Assembly: GCF_003987065.1 (NCBI RefSeq)
Contig: NZ_PIPY01000014.1
Span: 1 to 55,043 of the forward strand
Origin: Pseudidiomarina insulisalsae
Lineage (GTDB): Bacteria; Pseudomonadota; Gammaproteobacteria; Enterobacterales; Alteromonadaceae
DNA: 55,043 nt
Reading direction: 5' to 3'
The position numbers and the translations under genes were made by a program. Numbering within the stretch: position 1 is the first letter of the stretch; each line of letters opens with the position of its first letter. Below are positions 4,980 through 55,043 of the stretch, piece after piece. The notes under the pieces are model-generated. The model ran no database searches. It was not told where the DNA came from and worked only from the letters and a program-made list of their open reading frames with translations.

Positions 4980-6292
4980 ATTTTCACCGTTAATCCGTCG
5001 GCCAGGGCATTGCGATACGCACGCCAGGCCGGGTACAAACTTAACAAGGTTGCCGCGACAAGTATCGCCGCGAGTAAATAGAGTTCACGCAGGGTCAGCA
5101 CACTGGCAGTGACCTGAATACCTAAGCTTTCATGTAATACATCGGCGCCGAAGAACAGCACCGCATAAAGCCCGGCAGTACCAAGCAGCACGCCCAGCAG
5201 GGTCACCGCAAAGGCCTCAACCACCAATAACCCCAGTATTGTCATGGGGCCCGCGCCGATAGAACGTAAGACCGCCATTTCCCGTCGGCGTTCACGTAAA
5301 CTTGCCAGCAAGGTGGTGAGCATACCTAATAACCCGGTGATTACCACTAATACTGAGATTGCCACCAGGGCACGCTCAAACAGGCTCAGCGTACGCCAGA
5401 AATTCTGTAACGCCAGGCCTGGCATAATGGCTGACAGAGCTTCTTGTTTGTAAGTATTGATGACGCGCTGTAAACGCAAGGCCAGAGCTGGGTTTTCCAG
5501 CCCGAGCAGCACTGCGCTTATGGTATAGACTGGTGGGTTGGCGTCGCCATGGTCGTGCGTAGGGCCATGCTGATGGCTATGACCGTGATCGTGATCATGA
5601 CCATGCTCATGGTCGTGCTCATGACCTTCAGCTGTTGCGGGCTCCGGCAGGTAATCGCCATGTACCAGAGCCTGTGCTGCAAGCGGGATGAATACACCGC
5701 GATCAATGGGCGTGCCTGTGCGCGCTAAAATACCACTGACCAGAAACGGATGTGCGTCGTGTTGCGTGAAGCTGATTTCACCGGTGCCATGTGCGATCAC
5801 CAGCTCATCATCGACACTTAACTGCAACTCGGCTGCGGCATCCGCACCAAGTACTGCATAAGTCAGCGCTTCGTGTTCAGCAAAACTCTTCCCGGTAGCA
5901 AAAGCAAGCGGACGTTTATTACCATATTGAAAGTTATGAAAGAGTGCATCGGTCGTGGCAATCACCGGGAAGCCGCGCACACTGTCACCCATTGCCATGG
6001 GAATGTGCCACTGCACACCGGGTAGGTTCTGCAAATAGTCATAGCTTTGCCAGCTCATGGTATTCGAGAGATTACCGATGTGAAAAACACTGCTTAGTAA
6101 CAACTCGGTTGAGCCGGTGCGTGCACCGACAATTAAATCGGTACCTGAAATGGTATTGGCGAAGTTTTCCTGGGTTTGCACACGAATACGTTCCACGCCG
6201 AGTAGCAATAAGCTACTCACGGCAATCGCGACGATGGTTAGCCAGACACTGCCACGACGATTCCATAAACTGGCCAGTGCTAATTTAAACAT
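4976..6292 (-). CDS. FtsX/MacB-type ABC transporter permease with His-rich loop
   Basis: An inner-membrane permease of 438 residues with one N-terminal transmembrane helix (about residues 15-35), a large periplasmic domain, and three C-terminal helices (about 305-430). This is the FtsX/MacB topology. The periplasmic domain contains, near residues 220-248, a tract with 12 histidines alternating with Asp, Glu and Gly, a plausible metal-binding loop. I chose the ATG at 6292, which overlaps the ATPase stop by eight bases (ATGTTTAA) and has a G-rich ribosome site. An upstream ATG at 6310 would add six residues. With the ATPase and DUF3299 genes it resembles the Vibrio Zrg zinc-related system, but no ZrgA-like (DUF2796) gene is visible here. 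The substrate is unproven. Confidence 0.88.
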   Translation of the reverse strand: MFKLALASLWNRRGSVWLTIVAIAVSSLLLLGVERIRVQTQENFANTISGTDLIVGARTGSTELLLSSVFHIGNLSNTMSWQSYDYLQNLPGVQWHIPMAMGDSVRGFPVIATTDALFHNFQYGNKRPLAFATGKSFAEHEALTYAVLGADAAAELQLSVDDELVIAHGTGEISFTQHDAHPFLVSGILARTGTPIDRGVFIPLAAQALVHGDYLPEPATAEGHEHDHEHGHDHDHGHSHQHGPTHDHGDANPPVYTISAVLLGLENPALALRLQRVINTYKQEALSAIMPGLALQNFWRTLSLFERALVAISVLVVITGLLGMLTTLLASLRERRREMAVLRSIGAGPMTILGLLVVEAFAVTLLGVLLGTAGLYAVLFFGADVLHESLGIQVTASVLTLRELYLLAAILVAATLLSLYPAWRAYRNALADGLTVKI

Positions 6293-6983
6293 TTGCGGCC
6301 CCCGCTTCATTTATTTCGCTAAGCTCAATACTGCGCGGGAACAGAGGTGCGAGTGTGGCGTCGTGGGTCACAAATAACAGCGTAGTTTGCTGCGCATCGC
6401 AGGCTTCGAATAATAACTTAATAAAGTCGTCGCGGTGTGCCTGATCTAAGGCTGACGTTGGCTCATCGGCAATGATCAGCGCCGGGCTGCCTAACAATGC
6501 GCGAGCAGCCGCCACGCGCTGCTGTTGACCGACACTTAACTGATGCGCGGGCTGTTGCTGCTGCTCCGGCGTCAGCCCCAGACGGGTAAGTAACATTGCG
6601 GCCTGTTGGTCAATATCGTGCTGTTGCAGACGTTCCCGACGCGCGGGGGCGAACTGACACGCCAGGGTTACGTTGGCGCTGGCAGAAAGATAGGGGAGTA
6701 AATTAAATTGCTGAAAAATATAGCCAATCTCATTGGCGCGCAGACGGTCGCGACGGTGTTGGCTTAAGTTGGCAAGATCTTGCCCCAATACCTGGACTTG
6801 TCCGGGGCCACTGGTATGTATACCCGCAATAAGCCCCAGCAAGGTGGACTTGCCACTACCGCTGGCACCACGCAGCAACACCCGCTCGCCGCGGGTGACG
6901 GTTAAGCTGGGGATGCTCAGCAGCGGTGACTGAGCACCCGGCCAGCTAAACTGAAGCCGGTTCAGTTCAACGCAGGTGCTCAT
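6285..6983 (-). CDS. ABC transporter ATP-binding protein, LolD/MacB type
   Basis: A 232-residue cytoplasmic ATPase that powers the adjacent permease. It shows a Walker A motif GASGSGKST, Q-loop FQQFNLLPYLSA, ABC signature LSVGQQQR, Walker B LIIADEPTSALD and switch histidine FVTHD. The layout and length fit the LolD/MacB/FtsE class that pairs with FtsX-type permeases. It is the first gene of a tightly overlapping operon with the permease and DUF3299 genes. The ppa gene ends only five bases upstream of its start on the same strand, so read-through from ppa is possible. Confidence 0.93.
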   Translation of the reverse strand: MSTCVELNRLQFSWPGAQSPLLSIPSLTVTRGERVLLRGASGSGKSTLLGLIAGIHTSGPGQVQVLGQDLANLSQHRRDRLRANEIGYIFQQFNLLPYLSASANVTLACQFAPARRERLQQHDIDQQAAMLLTRLGLTPEQQQQPAHQLSVGQQQRVAAARALLGSPALIIADEPTSALDQAHRDDFIKLLFEACDAQQTTLLFVTHDATLAPLFPRSIELSEINEAGAANV

Positions 6984-8718: not shown

Positions 8719-10068
8719 ATGCACATTCATATTTTAGGTATTTGCGGCACTTTCATGGGTGGCATAGCCGCGTTGGCTAAAGCCATGGGCCATCATGTGA
8801 CCGGTAGTGATGCGCATGTTTATCCGCCCATGAGCGATCAGTTGGCAGCACTCGGCATCGAAGTTTACCAGGGCTATGATGCTGCACAATTAGAGCCGCA
8901 GCCTGATCTGGTGATTATAGGTAATGTTCTTAGCCGCGGGAATGAGGCGGTTGAGGCAGTTTTAAACCGGCGTATTCCTTATCGTTCCGGTGCGCAGTGG
9001 TTGCACGACGCGTTGTTACAGGACAAGTGGGTGCTGGCTGTTGCTGGTACCCATGGCAAGACCACCACTTCAAGTATGCTGACCTGGATTCTTGCGTTTG
9101 CCGGTTATCAGCCGGGCTTTTTAGTGGGTGGCGTTTTGGCTAATTTTGGCTGTTCCGCACAGCTGGGGAACAGTGATTTTTTTGTCATTGAAGCCGACGA
9201 GTATGACACGGCGTTCTTTGATAAACGCTCGAAGTTTGTGCATTACCAGCCCTCAACACTTGTTCTCAATAATCTTGAGTACGACCACGCTGATATCTTT
9301 CCGGACCTGGCGGCAATCGAAACGCAGTTTCATCATTTGGTGCGCATTATTCCGGGCCATGGGCAGATTATTTATCCGTCGGCTGATGAAAACCTGCAGC
9401 GGGTGCTGGCAAAAGGCTGCTGGAGTGAGCTGAAAACCTTAGGCGGCGACTGGCGCTATCGTTTAATCAGCGACGATGCGACGCATTTCGTGGTGCAACA
9501 CGGCGATGACGAAGCCGAGGTTCACTGGCAGGTGGTCGGCGAACATAACGCCAGTAATGCGGTGATGGCAATCGCCGCGGCGCATCATGTGGGCGTGCCG
9601 CTGACGGTGGCAGCTGAAGCTTTGGCGGATTTTAAAAATACCAAACGGCGCCTGGAGCTATTAGGTGAACCTGCAAATATTGCGGTGTACGACGACTTCG
9701 CGCACCATCCGACCGCCATTCGTAAGACGCTGGATGCCTTGCGCGCCAAAGTCGGTCAACAGCGTATCATTGCGGTGTTAGAGCCGCGTTCGAATACGAT
9801 GAAACAGGGCGTACACGCTGCCGACCTGGCGCCGGCGCTCGCGGGAGCTGACGCCTGCTACATGTTGCAGCCTGAAGGACTGCGCTGGCTGATTAAAGAT
9901 CAGGTGCCACAGGCTGATATCAGCCACAGCACTGATGAACTTCTCACTAAGCTGTTACGTAACTTAGCGCCGGGTGATCAGGTACTGATTATGAGTAACG
10001 GCGGGTTTGGCGGATTACACCGCAACCTGTTAAACGCATTGCAGGAGGGACAACATGGCCGTAGCTGA
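8719..10068 (+). CDS. mpl: UDP-MurNAc:L-Ala-gamma-D-Glu-meso-DAP ligase
   Basis: A 449-residue Mur-ligase paralogue that reattaches recycled murein tripeptide to UDP-MurNAc, bypassing MurC, MurD and MurE. It begins with the Rossmann-like [12 protein letters not shown], has the ATP-binding P-loop [11 protein letters not shown] near residue 110, and shows the Mur-ligase middle and C-terminal domain motifs EADEYDTAF and [11 protein letters not shown]. The length fits Mpl. It overlaps ubiX by 14 bases and should be cotranscribed with it. Peptidoglycan recycling genes anmK and an amgK-like gene lie elsewhere in this window. Confidence 0.96.
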
Positions 10069-10678
10069 CAACGCAATTACCTTAGCGATTACCGGTGCCT
10101 CTGGTGCACCTTATGCCATGCGTTTGTTAGAATGCCTGTTGCAACAACAGCAGCAGGTGCATTTGCTGATGTCCAGCGCCGCACGCGTAGTGTTTGCGAC
10201 CGAGCTCGACTGGCAATTGCCGGCGGCGCCAAAGGCTATGGGCGATGCATTACGGTCGCGCTTCAATGTGAGCGAAACACAGCTTCAGGTCTATGGCAAA
10301 GAGCAGTGGTTTTCACCGGTGGCATCGGGGTCAGCCGCACCCAAACGCATGATTATCTGCCCCTGCTCGACCGGAACCTTGTCGGCCATTGCCTGCGGAG
10401 CGAGTAACACCTTGCTCGAGCGCGCTGCCGATGTGGTTATAAAAGAGCGCGGTCAACTGATCGTAGTGCCACGCGAGATGCCGCTGTCGGCGCTACATCT
10501 GGAAAATATGCTGAAGCTGGCGCAACTAGGAGTGACGGTGATGCCCGCTGCGCCGGGTTTTTATCATCAACCGCAAAGTATTGATGACCTGATCGATTTT
10601 GTGGTCGCGCGGTTATTAGATCATCTTAATCTGGAGCAGAAGCTACAGCCTCGCTGGGGTTATGGAGAGGAGTCCTGA
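10055..10678 (+). CDS. ubiX: Flavin prenyltransferase UbiX
   Basis: A 207-residue flavoprotein that prenylates FMN to make the cofactor for the UbiD decarboxylase in ubiquinone synthesis. The N-terminal [17 protein letters not shown]-binding motif, the central [26 protein letters not shown] block and [17 protein letters not shown] are diagnostic. A strong AGGAGG sits seven bases before the ATG, inside the end of mpl. The two genes overlap by 14 bases, suggesting translational coupling. The yadG-like gene starts six bases after the stop. Confidence 0.96.
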
Positions 10679-49827: not shown

Positions 49828-52800
49828 ATGGCATGGACGCATTCTGTTGCGCTATCTGCGCTCACAATCCAGTTGTTGTCGATAACACCAGCAGTAGCTG
49901 AGGATGAGCAACAATCCGCGCTCACGGAGCGCACTGTGGAGTCACAAAGCTTCACGCGAGACAGAGGCGATCTATCCGATGTGGAGCTCTCGCCTGCGAT
50001 TGAGTGGGACAGGCGCAGTGATATTGGCGAGCGCCTGTCTGAGCATGGCTCGGATTTGCTCGGCGATACGATTGACACGCATATGGGAAGTTTGTCGTTT
50101 TCTCATACCGATATATCCTTACCCGGAAATTCGGATTTGCCAGTCACGCTGATCCGTGAGCTGACGCAGGGGTACTTCCATAACTTCGATGAAGATGTGG
50201 AATTTGGCGACTGGAATTATTCGGTCCCTCGTTTACACGTTATTACTTCAACGCAGTCGGGCACCTACACAACGGATTGGGCAGGGGCTCGTTGCACCGA
50301 CCCCTCATCAGCATTTGCTGTATCCATTTATTCGGGGGCGAATGCTTCCGACGTCCAAAGCTATGTTTACCCAGTGGAATACAGCAACGGCTTGCAGCTT
50401 GCTATACCTGGGCAGGGCACGCAACAAGTGCTTAGTATGTCGCCGAACGTCAGCCAACCGTTCCCCTCCGCAGCGCAATTTGTTACACCCGCTGGCTGGT
50501 ACTTTATTTGTGGCTCCGCAAATGACGGAGGTGAAGGGTTTGTCGGCATCGCGCCAAATGGTGATCAGTATCGCTTCGACCGTTATGCGCAGTTCAAACA
50601 TCGAAACTTCGGTGCCATTACACCGACCGGCGGTAACGCCGGCCCGTCACGCATTATTGAGCGGGTACGTGCAATGTTGCTGGCCACCGAGGTGACCGAT
50701 GTGCATGGGAATTGGGTGCGCTATGACTATGATGCGTCCGGTCGATTGACCCGTATTTACGCCAACGACGGCCGCTCGATTACCTTAAGCTATAACGCAG
50801 ACGGCGTGGTGTCCTCGGCGACCGCCAATGGCAGAACCTGGACTTATGGGTATGTCAGTGCCGAGGTCGGCGATATGATGCGCGGCGATTACGCAGCGGC
50901 TAAACAGATCTTAAATAGCGTAACGCGGCCTGATGGCACGTCGTGGTCATTTGATTTGGTCGCCATGCATCACCGCCCGCAAACGGGGACTTATTGTACT
51001 AACATTGGCGGAAGCTTAAGCCTTACGCACCCCAACGGTGTGACCGGCACCTTCACGGTCTCTGAACTCAAACATCGGCGTGGCTGGGCGGAATGGATGA
51101 CTGAAACCACCATTCGTTGCTCCGGTGCCTTTATCAATCCGCGCCAATCGACCTATTACGATATTTATCATTCTCCCACCGAGACCATGTCGGTGACCCA
51201 GAAAACGGTGAGCGGCCCCGACATGCCGACATCACAGTGGACGTACACCTATGAGCAGGATGTCGAAGAGGAACGCTACCCGGTAGGCCATGAATACGAA
51301 GGGCATCCCATTGCGACGTCGGAGAACGACCCCACAAACTGGACTAAAGTAGTGAATCCGGATGGCTCGGAAACGACCTATGTGCATTACTGGTCGGAGC
51401 TATCGCAAGTGTCAGTTGACTATAAACATGTAGGTAAGCTGGTACGAAAAGAGGTTCGTTCTTCGCCGGGTGGTAGTTTGCTTGAGGTGGTTGATTATAG
51501 CTATTTAACTGCTGGAAGCTTTGGGCCTTCGTATTTACCTAATGACTATCAATATGCACCATTACGCTCATTAGTCTCGTCGGCGTCCTCAACCGCCAAT
51601 GTGCAGCCAGCAAAGCAAGTTCAGTCTCGCGATGGCGATACCTTTACCACCGAATACGTTTATAACACCACACAGTCGTCTGGCGCTTATTCCTACGGCA
51701 AACCCATTCAGACGAAAGTCTGGTCTAATGTCTCGACAACGCCACGTACAACGGACATTACGTACGAGCATAATACGACGCGCTGGGTCTTAGGGTTGAC
51801 CAAAACCGTGACGGTGAACTCTCGCCTGACCGATAGCTACAATTACACGAGCAAAGGCGATATCTATCAGCACTGGAAGTATGGGCAAAAAATTGCTGAG
51901 TACAGTTACAACAGTTCGGGAACCCTGAACGCAATTACCGATGCACGCGGACAGGTAACGACGTTACAAAACTGGAAGCGTGGTATGCCGCAGCAACTAA
52001 CGCGCCCAGACAACACTGTCATTTACCAGTACGTTGATAATAACGGTTGGTTGACGAGCACGCGCGATGGCCGCGGTAATACCACGAGCTACTCGCGGGA
52101 CGCGATGGGAAGGTTGACGGCGATAGACTATCCAGGCAGTTGGTTGAACACCACTATCAGTTATGACTTCTCGCAAGGTGGCGCGAAGCAGACTATTTTA
52201 CGAGGCAACGCGCTGACCGAAATCGACTACGATGGTATGTTCCGCCCGGTGTTGGAGAAACGCCAGGCGTTGGATACCGGCTGGGTGGCGTACGTGAAGA
52301 CCAACTACAACAACACCGGTCACGTCGCGTTTAAGTCGCTCCCGGCAACCAGCGCGTCGCCTGCGGCTGGAACTAATTACACGTATGACAGCCTCGGTCG
52401 AGTGCTTACGGAAACCGAAACCGTTGCGCCGTACGCTCAGGTGAGCCATCAGTACATGAGCTCACATCGGCACCGTGTCTACGACCCGTCTAATGCGTAT
52501 ACTGATTATTATGCCTATGGCTATGATGGCCCGGGCTCGGACGATTATCGCGCGATTTATCATAGCTCCGGCACCAAGACCGACCTCGTGAAAAACGTGT
52601 GGGGTGAGCTAACACAACTGCGCCAATGGGGTACGCAAAACGGCTATTATGCCGACCAAAGCCAGTATTATTATTACGACGCGAAGCGCCGCGTGTGTCG
52701 ACATTACACACCGGAGACCGGTGCCACGCTGTATGCCTACAACGCGGCGGGGCAAGTGACCGCCTACGCGCAAGGGCAGGCGAACAGCGGTTGTACGGTG

Positions 52801-54615
52801 CCTGGTTCAACGGCGCGTGTGGATTTATCCTACGATGCCATGGGGCGCTTAACCGTCACCGATTATGACGATGGCATCACCCCGAATATCAGTCGCAGCT
52901 ACGATGCCGATGGAAATCTTCTCAGCGTCAGCCGCGGTGGCGTCAATTGGGATTACAGTTACAACAACTTAAGTCAGCCCACCGCCGAAACCTTAACGCT
53001 CGATAGTCGCACTTATGCACTGTCGTATAGCTATAACAGTGCCGGACAACTCACGCAAAAGACGCTGCCGTCAGGGCGCAGCATTACCTATAGCAACGAT
53101 GGCTTGGGTCGCCCTTTAACGGTGCGCAATAACGGCGCACTGTTGGCTTCAAGTATGAGTTATCATGCGAACGGCAGTCTGGCTCAGGCCGCTTACGCGA
53201 ACGGTCATCAGTTTACACAAGCGCTGAATGCACGCGGCTTACCCCAGCAGCTTTATGTAAGCGATGGCGCACAGGTCGCGCTTGACCAGTCCATGACGTA
53301 CGATGCGCGAGGCAACTTAACCCAACTGACCGACGCCGCGGTGCCGAGCAATTCGCGCGCCAATAGCTATGACGGACTCAGTCGTCTGGTCAGCGCCAGT
53401 GGTCCGTGGGGAAGTGGCAGCTACACCTACGATGCCTTAGGTAACCTGCGCCAGAAACAGCTCGGTTCGCGCACGGTCGGCTTGAGTTACAATAGCGTGA
53501 ACCGCTTAGTGACAAGTGATGATTCGGGCGCTTCTGGCTTGCGCAGCTTTAGCTACGACAGTCGTGGTAATGTCACCGCCGCCGGCGCCTTGCAGTTCAA
53601 TTACGACGCCGAGAACCAGCCAGTTAGCGTGAGTGGCAGCAGTAGTGGTACCTACGTTTATGACGGGAATCTCAAACGCGTCAAGCAAAGCGTGAATGGT
53701 GCCACGATTTACAACGTGTACGACCAGGCTGGTCAGCTGGTGCATGTCGATGCGCTCGATGCCGGCAAGTCCACTGATTATATTCACGGAGCACAGGGCA
53801 CGCTGGCCCGTATTACCAATAACGTTGTGACGTTCTTACATCACGATAGCCTCGGCAGTGCACAAAGTGGAACCGATAGTAATGGTTCTGTTATTTGGCA
53901 GGAATCGTACACTCCTTATGGCGAAGCAATTAACGATATCGCTGCGAATAAAAACTTAGCTGGTTTTACTGGACATATTACGGATGATGCGACCGACTTA
54001 AGTTATATGCAGGCACGATACTATGATCCAGTTATAGGGCGGTTCTACTCAAATGATCCTGTAGGTGCGATTCGACACTTAAGTACACCGAATGGCATAC
54101 ATGGCTTTAACCGATATGCTTATGGCAACAACAACCCATACCGATATAAAGACCCAACAGGTAAGTCTTCAGAAGAAGCTAATATGTGGGCTAACATGTT
54201 TGGGTTTTCCTCGGCAGATCAAGCTACTACAAGAATAAATAATTCAATTGAGAGTGGCCGACAAGCGGTGGTAAATTCAACGTCTCCTGAAAACTTAAGT
54301 GCTGTTTCCGATACACTTGCTGGTGCAACGGTTGTCGCTTTAGTTGCCGGCCAACCAGAAGTCGCTGCGGTGACAGGGATGGGATCATTTGTAGCGGGGC
54401 TAGCAGCTGCCGTTCAAGGTGACGATCCTGTAGCGGGTGTAGTTACAGAAACTGCACTACAAGTTACGGGTACTAAATCAGTTGGAACCGCAGCCAAAAT
54501 CGTTAACGAAGCGTTAGACAGTACTCCAGCAGTGAGAAATGGAATTGACGCTGCGTCTGATGCGACTCAGACTATTATCAAAAATGAGTTAAAAGAAGAG
54601 ATCAATAATGAGTAA
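49828..54615 (+). CDS. Secreted Rhs/YD-repeat protein with variable C-terminal tip
   Basis: A 1595-residue protein. Residues 1-24 look like a Sec signal peptide ending ITPAVA before EDEQQ, so export by the general pathway is likely. An N-terminal region (about 60-280) is followed by many YD repeats (about 290-1380), such as YDASGRLTRIY and YDAMGRLTVTDYDDG, which should form a large beta-cage. The Rhs core lies at about 1340-1446 and includes YMQARYYDPVIGRFYSNDP and ends at DPTGK (1442-1446). The last 149 residues form a tip with no recognised motif, rich in Gly, Ala and Val in its middle. From about 53870 the DNA becomes more AT-rich and codon use changes. A small membrane protein gene overlaps the stop by eight bases. 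A polymorphic toxin is inferred; the activity is unknown. Confidence 0.9.
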   Translation: MAWTHSVALSALTIQLLSITPAVAEDEQQSALTERTVESQSFTRDRGDLSDVELSPAIEWDRRSDIGERLSEHGSDLLGDTIDTHMGSLSFSHTDISLPGNSDLPVTLIRELTQGYFHNFDEDVEFGDWNYSVPRLHVITSTQSGTYTTDWAGARCTDPSSAFAVSIYSGANASDVQSYVYPVEYSNGLQLAIPGQGTQQVLSMSPNVSQPFPSAAQFVTPAGWYFICGSANDGGEGFVGIAPNGDQYRFDRYAQFKHRNFGAITPTGGNAGPSRIIERVRAMLLATEVTDVHGNWVRYDYDASGRLTRIYANDGRSITLSYNADGVVSSATANGRTWTYGYVSAEVGDMMRGDYAAAKQILNSVTRPDGTSWSFDLVAMHHRPQTGTYCTNIGGSLSLTHPNGVTGTFTVSELKHRRGWAEWMTETTIRCSGAFINPRQSTYYDIYHSPTETMSVTQKTVSGPDMPTSQWTYTYEQDVEEERYPVGHEYEGHPIATSENDPTNWTKVVNPDGSETTYVHYWSELSQVSVDYKHVGKLVRKEVRSSPGGSLLEVVDYSYLTAGSFGPSYLPNDYQYAPLRSLVSSASSTANVQPAKQVQSRDGDTFTTEYVYNTTQSSGAYSYGKPIQTKVWSNVSTTPRTTDITYEHNTTRWVLGLTKTVTVNSRLTDSYNYTSKGDIYQHWKYGQKIAEYSYNSSGTLNAITDARGQVTTLQNWKRGMPQQLTRPDNTVIYQYVDNNGWLTSTRDGRGNTTSYSRDAMGRLTAIDYPGSWLNTTISYDFSQGGAKQTILRGNALTEIDYDGMFRPVLEKRQALDTGWVAYVKTNYNNTGHVAFKSLPATSASPAAGTNYTYDSLGRVLTETETVAPYAQVSHQYMSSHRHRVYDPSNAYTDYYAYGYDGPGSDDYRAIYHSSGTKTDLVKNVWGELTQLRQWGTQNGYYADQSQYYYYDAKRRVCRHYTPETGATLYAYNAAGQVTAYAQGQANSGCTVPGSTARVDLSYDAMGRLTVTDYDDGITPNISRSYDADGNLLSVSRGGVNWDYSYNNLSQPTAETLTLDSRTYALSYSYNSAGQLTQKTLPSGRSITYSNDGLGRPLTVRNNGALLASSMSYHANGSLAQAAYANGHQFTQALNARGLPQQLYVSDGAQVALDQSMTYDARGNLTQLTDAAVPSNSRANSYDGLSRLVSASGPWGSGSYTYDALGNLRQKQLGSRTVGLSYNSVNRLVTSDDSGASGLRSFSYDSRGNVTAAGALQFNYDAENQPVSVSGSSSGTYVYDGNLKRVKQSVNGATIYNVYDQAGQLVHVDALDAGKSTDYIHGAQGTLARITNNVVTFLHHDSLGSAQSGTDSNGSVIWQESYTPYGEAINDIAANKNLAGFTGHITDDATDLSYMQARYYDPVIGRFYSNDPVGAIRHLSTPNGIHGFNRYAYGNNNPYRYKDPTGKSSEEANMWANMFGFSSADQATTRINNSIESGRQAVVNSTSPENLSAVSDTLAGATVVALVAGQPEVAAVTGMGSFVAGLAAAVQGDDPVAGVVTETALQVTGTKSVGTAAKIVNEALDSTPAVRNGIDAASDATQTIIKNELKEEINNE

Positions 54616-54880
54616 TAGAACTCCACTAGTAGTTTATTTGGAAAAAAAATACTTACTGGCTTTTAGAATTATAATGCTCATGGCATCACTTCCATTTCTA
54701 CATGATGTTTACTTGATAATGGCTTCGGGTATCGCTGACTCTGGCGAATATATAGTTCAGCGTGGTGACGGATGGGGATACTATGCGTATTTATTTAAAA
54801 AATCAGCGTTCGCATTTCTGTTCATTTGGTTAGCAACCCTGGGGACAAAGGAAAAATCCGACACTCCCAAAAGTGAATAA
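54608..54880 (+). CDS. Small membrane protein, candidate immunity protein
   Basis: A 90-residue AT-rich gene encoding a protein with two likely transmembrane helices (about residues 14-38 and 63-81), separated by a short acidic and aromatic loop, and a charged C-terminus. I do not recognise the family. Its ATG overlaps the Rhs stop (ATGAGTAA) and AAGAG lies seven bases upstream, so it is translated together with the Rhs tip. Small genes immediately after Rhs tips usually encode the cognate immunity protein. A membrane location would fit a membrane-acting toxin, but this is inference only. Confidence 0.7.
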   Translation: MSNRTPLVVYLEKKYLLAFRIIMLMASLPFLHDVYLIMASGIADSGEYIVQRGDGWGYYAYLFKKSAFAFLFIWLATLGTKEKSDTPKSE

Positions 54881-54897: not shown

Positions 54898-54941
54898 TCA
54901 CGCTAGCAGATCTAAGCAGGGCAAGAGCGTGAACGTTTTTT
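54898..54941 (+). terminator. Possible terminator after the candidate immunity gene
   Basis: TCACGCT (54898-54904) and AGCGTGA (54926-54932) form a seven-base stem with a 21-base loop. Three bases later a run of six Ts follows (54936-54941). The long loop makes this weak. The second arm can also pair with CATTCACG to its right, so the structure may serve both strands. Confidence 0.35.
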
Positions 54942-55043
54942 AAGCATTCACGATTAAGTCCAGCACTTCTTCGCTCATGGTGGCCATCTTCTGTTTGCGA
55001 TTGACGCTGGCATCTATCGTCTTCTCGCGCCGTATCTGATTCA
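54940..55043 (-). CDS. 3' end of an unidentified minus-strand gene
   Basis: An open frame enters from the right edge of the window and ends at a TAA at 54940-54942. The 33 visible residues include REKTIDASVNRKQKMATMSE and end LDLIVNA. They are charged and helical in character, and codon use resembles the housekeeping genes more than the Rhs tip. The frame is too short to identify; it could be the C-terminus of any gene flanking the Rhs locus. It is reported as a partial gene because it is open across the whole visible stretch. Confidence 0.4.
   Translation of the reverse strand, partial: NQIRREKTIDASVNRKQKMATMSEEVLDLIVNA

Follow-up and report, generated by a model that had tools for sequence, protein, structure and literature searches.

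Rhs proteins with a C-terminal piece that acts on membranes have been described in Pseudomonas aeruginosa, where the 149-residue Tse5-CT, for which no enzyme activity is predicted, inserts into membranes and makes pores that are selective for ions. The depolarisation caused by Tse5 is cured by Tsi5, a protein with two predicted transmembrane (TM) regions (PMC9637101). In this study, a comparable arrangement was analysed near the end of contig NZ_PIPY01000014.1 of Pseudidiomarina insulisalsae, a whole contig of 55043 bases that is hereafter called the window, in which the penultimate gene encodes an Rhs protein and the next gene, overlapping it by 8 bases, encodes a protein of 90 residues. Similar to Tse5/Tsi5, the locus combines an Rhs shell carrying two DPxG motifs, a C-terminal piece of about 150 residues (the tip) and a small protein with two TM regions (PMC9637101, PMC10684867), the latter predicted by AlphaFold2 to be a helical hairpin with a mean predicted local distance difference test score (pLDDT) of 83.9. 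However, Tse5 is loaded on VgrG4 of the H1 type VI secretion system (T6SS), whereas the Rhs protein of the window has a Sec-like start. We propose that the Rhs gene probably ends in a polymorphic toxin–immunity cassette, in which the tip is a membrane-depolarising toxin and the small protein its immunity protein; taken separately, the pair is very probably a toxin–immunity cassette, and the balance of the evidence inclines towards its acting at the membrane.

Other described systems share some of these traits. The ionophores of contact-dependent growth inhibition (CDI) are likewise polymorphic, C-terminal and helical, are borne on a large carrier and form specific pairs with diverse small hydrophobic CdiI immunity proteins (PMC11630599), but their carrier is CdiA with a VENN boundary, whereas that of the window is an Rhs protein with DPxG motifs, and the five-helix bundle of the CDI ionophores is not established for the window tip because the tip model is poor. 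Tox-WTIP is a pore-forming tip with two membrane helices that occurs with RHS repeats and is exported by Sec and the type II secretion system (T2SS) in proteobacteria (PMC3482391), but its RxxR and Wx[ST]IP motifs are absent from the window tip by eye. On the immunity side, Imm17 has two TM helices with a conserved Arg between them (PMC3482391), and several relatives of the window's small protein carry RG in the loop; however, the WxW of Imm17 is absent from the nine closest members, and no Pfam match to Imm17 was obtained for the small protein and ten relatives. EsxX, Ssp6, Ssp4 and Tse4 have also been described as non-enzymatic, membrane-depolarising antibacterial toxins, but they use other carriers (LXG proteins of the type VII secretion system, or T6SS cargo) and are not Rhs tips.

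To define the distribution of the tip, 26 genomes of the genus and 295 of the family were searched. The genus search yielded two further tips (genomes G005 and G024), and the family search recovered G034, G071, G088, G112, G261 and G266 besides the window. The family search gave 15 matches at E ≤0.1, of which the seven at E ≤2e-8 were counted and the eight at E 0.0019–0.073 were left out; of the latter, G160 and G276 were inspected, and G276 reached an hhalign probability of 6.8, so that the relationship of its tip was not established. The seven counted matches together with G005 and G024 make up nine tip loci, with complete tips in the window, G112, G088, G266, G071 and G024 and fragments in G034 and G261. 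In G005 (locus L022) the tip is broken by an in-frame stop, and the downstream two-helix partner gene is still open. A small membrane-protein gene lies directly downstream of the tip at all nine loci, the position that an immunity gene would occupy in an Rhs polymorphic toxin system, and a chance pairing was rejected because the two genes are found together again in other genera. Each of the five complete relatives has a tip that stops at a similar point (146–160 residues) and adjoins the partner gene. At seven of the nine loci the partner belongs, in the wide sense, to the two-helix family of the window: a close group (alignment A4) is 37–74% identical to the window's small protein, A4 and a further group (A3; G005, G160, G061 and G111) match each other at E 4e-9, and the partner in G071 matches the joint A3/A4 profile at E 1e-18.

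Comparison of the tips with the Rhs cores that carry them indicated that the cassette behaves as an exchangeable unit. The tips of the window and G112 are 62% identical and the final 150 residues of their cores 43%, and for the window and G088 the values are 52% and 36%, with DPxG spacings of 28 and 19; conversely, G112 and G266 share 27% of the tip and 58% of the core, and G088 and G024 25% and 65%. Over 10 pairs, which are non-independent and come from only five systems, tip identity correlated with partner identity (r 0.84) and not with core identity (r -0.43). Tips have thus moved between Rhs cores, as read from these alignments, and an exchanged variable tip is a mark of Rhs polymorphic toxins. 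In addition, partner genes of the close group occur without a directly preceding tip in G172 and G134 (two of the seven genomes with a close relative) and on contigs L049 and L055, the former with only about 1 kb of upstream sequence. The co-variation of tip and partner, the swapping of cores and the orphan partners therefore follow the pattern of polymorphic toxin–immunity cassettes. The linkage that the first-pass annotation, made from the letters of the window, had asked to see across genomes was thus borne out, the two genes remaining linked from genus to genus and when the Rhs core differs. The opposite case that it had envisaged, a homologous tip that lacks a small membrane gene, occurred at none of the nine loci, although at two of them the membrane gene is of another kind.

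Features of the Rhs locus in the window, with positions counted from the first base of the window
Feature	Position	Strand	Evidence
Rhs protein, 1595 aa (stop codon included in the positions)	49828..54615	+	Open reading frame (ORF); Pfam RHS_repeat E 1.8e-30; NCBIfam Rhs_assc_core E 5.7e-20, residues 1361-1445
Putative Sec signal peptide, residues 1-24; cleavage possibly after AVA (AVA-ED)	49828..49899	+	Hydrophobic stretch, read by eye
End of Rhs core, DPVG-X28-DPTG, two DPxG motifs laid out as for Rhs self-cleavage but more widely spaced	54055..54162	+	Spacing count
Variable tip, residues 1446-1595, proposed toxin domain	54163..54612	+	No Pfam/NCBIfam model above cut-off; homologous tip sequence in eight other genomes
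Hydrophobic helical hairpin of tip, residues 1490-1508 and 1511-1529, proposed membrane-inserting part	54295..54414	+	Hydrophobicity; low-confidence model helices
C-terminal helical part of tip	54481..54609	+	Helices 111-121 and 126-153, low-confidence model; conserved in truncated and interrupted relatives
Small gene, 90 aa, two-helix membrane protein, proposed immunity protein	54608..54880	+	ORF; AlphaFold2 pLDDT 83.9; nine-member alignment
Predicted TM helix 1 of small protein, residues 13-40	54644..54727	+	AlphaFold2 model; hydrophobicity
Predicted TM helix 2 of small protein, residues 57-77	54776..54838	+	AlphaFold2 model; hydrophobicity

The two TM segments that had been claimed for the partner agreed with its structure model, built from an alignment of eight sequences, in which two long helices are joined via a short strand pair. 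The hydrophobic segments reach Kyte-Doolittle means of 1.82 and 1.40, and the nine-member alignment contains 16 invariant columns, including residues of a GW.YY.YL-like loop. By eye, Lys/Arg residues lie before helix 1 and after helix 2 and the inter-helix loop is acidic overall, which suggests that both ends are cytoplasmic. A Pfam match to Wzy (E 0.0023; 17.1 bits against a cut-off of 26.6) was discarded, the profile of the small protein found no match among PDB sequences, and Foldseek returned 24 matches for the model, the best at an E of only 3.1. To evaluate how often such a neighbour occurs, 51 mechanically called ORFs of at least 250 aa on both strands of the window, three more stretches of the same genome and one congener stretch were screened for an ORF of 60–130 aa with two hydrophobic segments starting between -60 and +70 of the stop; only one had it, namely this Rhs gene.

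A search of 394 genomes of the order matched nine, three of them convincingly (G000, G088 and G034), with a second, weak match in G034, and a search of 369 genomes of the class with the small protein gave the window as sole convincing match, with two others at E about 0.005; a broad small-protein search matched 21 of the 295 family genomes at E ≤0.001. Within the samples searched, tip or partner was confined to the family of the window, plus the metagenome-assembled contigs L049 and L055, of which L049 is labelled Flavobacteriaceae and may be mis-binned. Plasmid scans with the tip and the small protein, a search of viral contigs with the small-protein profile and a tip search of a genome-contig collection gave no match.

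Consistent with the earlier claim that the tip carries no known toxin motif, profile searches gave no Pfam or NCBIfam model above cut-off for the tip or the small protein, and PADLOC matched neither of them. The sole Pfam match up to E 1, ssDNA_TraI_N, was below cut-off (E 0.32) and discarded, and the best match of the tip profile in the PDB set was unconvincing (E 0.27); the listed Tse5 chain 8cp6_B (1121 aa) corresponds in length to the shell only, so that Tse5-CT may be missing from that set. An anti-phage defence reading was dropped for want of a PADLOC match. In composition, Cys, His and Tyr are absent from the window tip, which contains a single Trp, and four relatives in which these residues were counted have no Cys, 0–2 His, 0–4 Tyr and 0–1 Trp; no invariant combination of acid, base and nucleophile that would resemble an active site stands out in the tip alignments. 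The middle of the tip holds two hydrophobic 19-mers with a Kyte-Doolittle mean of 1.57 each, in a hairpin region that is among the better conserved stretches across the three closest tips. Shuffles of the tip residues produced a second such segment in 12 of 2000 cases, while the strongest single segment was reached in 377 of 2000, so that a single hydrophobic segment is unremarkable. A crude sum on a biological hydrophobicity scale was positive for both tip and both partner segments and was therefore not discriminating. Taken together, the weakly hydrophobic middle, the absence of Cys and His from this copy and the absence of a conserved catalytic set make it likely that the tip depolarises the inner membrane of a target cell.

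To evaluate whether hydrophobicity marks a membrane toxin, 22 Rhs tips in 15 stretches were surveyed, a sample that is biased by several stretches having been fetched for their two-helix gene. Seven of the tips belong to the window's family; among the other 15, a small ORF with at least two hydrophobic segments lies within 250 bases downstream in eight and not in seven. At least one hydrophobic tip segment was present in all eight tips with a membrane-type neighbour, but also in four of the seven without one, including tips that continue into a recognisable HNH-like domain by eye (L102). A hydrophobic stretch is therefore not diagnostic of a membrane toxin, and the argument for one is built on the lack of a further domain in the tip together with the membrane partner.

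Besides the four hydrophobic tips just mentioned, several other results weigh against a membrane-depolarising cassette. The AlphaFold2 model of the tip, built from an alignment of five and consisting of helices only with a hairpin at 46–65/69–89, has a mean pLDDT of 55 and hence low confidence, and at a mean of 1.3 two hydrophobic segments were found in only two of six complete tips, the other four having one. At two of the nine loci (G024 and G261) the tip is followed by a membrane partner of another kind, a protein of 105 residues that is alike in both by eye and has three hydrophobic segments as counted for G024. As for cassette exchange, the window and G266 are not discordant, with 40% identity in the tip and 55% in the core, and the base of the correlation given above is small.

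Many Rhs tips are enzymes (PMC10684867), and a tip that matches no model of any kind might be an enzyme toxin of an unrecognised family, whose small membrane partner would bind it at the membrane or block its entry. We consider this unlikely, since the window tip has none of the Cys, His and Tyr residues and its relatives few, no invariant acid, base or nucleophile set appears in the alignments, and the partner is mostly a membrane protein. It is about as improbable that the tip is a pre-toxin or entry segment that has lost its toxin part and left the small gene behind. Other Rhs tips, for instance in L102, do have Gly/Ala-rich hydrophobic stretches ahead of a toxin domain that can be recognised, and even the best hydrophobic segments of the tip are weak; against a loss, however, stand the similar end of the tip beside the partner gene in the five complete relatives, the conservation of its C-terminal part, and the retention of the partner with the tip at every one of the nine loci.

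A membrane-linked function other than toxin and immunity, such as a surface anchor for the Rhs protein or an aid to its export, would fit the overlap of the small gene with the Rhs gene and the membrane nature of its product, the more so as toxicity is a property that we infer. Against such a role, tips and partners change together while the cores do not, partner genes stand alone in other genomes, and Rhs tip cassettes lying side by side within an island (L026, L023 and L032) differ in their small gene; this explanation appears very improbable.

For the favoured toxin–immunity cassette, we infer a course comprising export, cleavage, toxicity, a membrane target and protection. The Rhs shell would be exported by Sec and would cleave the tip off at the DPxG motif, freeing it at or in a neighbouring bacterium, where the hydrophobic hairpin and the amphipathic C-terminal helices would insert into the inner membrane; the inserted tip would then leak ions, so that the target cell would lose its membrane potential. 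In the producer, the 90-residue protein, as a two-helix hairpin in the inner membrane, would block the insertion or the channel opening of its own tip.

The Rhs/YD repeats of the window protein end in a DPxG-bearing Rhs-associated core, as in Rhs polymorphic toxin systems, and the published self-cleavage motif is DPXG-X18-DPXG, with X19 in Tse5 (PMC10684867); the spacing is X28 in the window and G266, and X19 in G088 and G024. As in the window, the N-termini of the Rhs proteins in G024, G266 and G071 are hydrophobic by eye, and polymorphic toxins with RHS repeats exported by Sec and T2SS have been listed by Zhang and others (PMC3482391). The T6SS sheath genes VipB (PF05943) and VipA (PF05591) were not found in the genome, other T6SS parts not having been searched, while the same searches were positive in E. 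coli among 14 control genomes. Because the two sheath genes were not found and the Rhs protein has a Sec-like start, delivery probably differs from that of Tse5. More broadly, and on a tentative and rather doubtful footing, Sec-exported Rhs proteins of marine Alteromonadales-type bacteria may carry diversified non-enzymatic depolarising tips, the window's family included, with a two-helix immunity superfamily that also occurs as orphans and a route without T6SS or CDI that would be undescribed for Rhs pore formers.

The pair had been put forward as the best candidate in the window for an undescribed system. This was too strong, because an Rhs pore-forming tip with a two-TM immunity protein is known from Tse5/Tsi5 (PMC9637101), although the sequence family itself looks new and the delivery route is probably new as well. 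Neither Pfam, NCBIfam nor the literature searched appears to have a name for the tip–immunity family; among the literature titles on Rhs or polymorphic toxins of Idiomarina and Pseudoalteromonas none concerned it, and the titles listed more widely dealt with other toxins. If the proposal holds, an unnamed tip–immunity family would join the few known membrane-acting Rhs toxins and would provide small pairs (roughly 150 plus 90 residues) in which to study the disarming of a membrane toxin by a two-helix protein. The two missing sheath genes and the Sec-exported appearance of the shell also raise the question of the route by which Rhs proteins of this sort arrive at other cells.

The gene structure of the locus was as first described, comprising the two ORFs with their overlap, a DPTGK motif at Rhs residues 1442–1446 and the 149 residues that remain after it. 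The contig belongs to a genome of 2.56 Mb in 19 contigs (99.66% complete) and ends 163 bases past the small gene, where the window therefore stops. The ends of the window contig (C6) and of contig C14 of the same genome (G000) are identical, window 54919–55043 corresponding to C14 8194–8318; in both contigs the shared end, from about 54919 in the window, begins soon after the gene behind an Rhs gene, and in C14 it adjoins an ORF resembling part of a transposase by eye. The assembly was probably interrupted by a repeat element, possibly a mobile one, that lies next to two Rhs loci. Two other Rhs loci with unrelated tips lie in the genome, at C14 2353–7380 and C17 725–1315; the C14 Rhs protein has 1676 aa and is followed by a gene for 168 aa without hydrophobic segments.

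Several other loci drew attention in the surveyed genomes. L026 (G034) contains a row of several headless Rhs tip cassettes, each having a small gene of its own, which in most is a membrane-protein gene of a different kind. On the minus strand of L031 (G061), two genes at 5169–5432 and 6171–6434 encode identical proteins that are distantly related to the window's small protein; they are spaced by roughly 1 kb, an acetyltransferase-like gene occupies the interval and the vicinity lacks an Rhs gene, an arrangement that might be a cassette array. On the reversed strand of L025 (G172), at 9565–10447, a Gly/Ser-rich Rhs tip has an 88-aa two-helix neighbour with two zinc-finger-like CxxC pairs, possibly another membrane pair, and a second, headless copy of this tip and its gene lies upstream.

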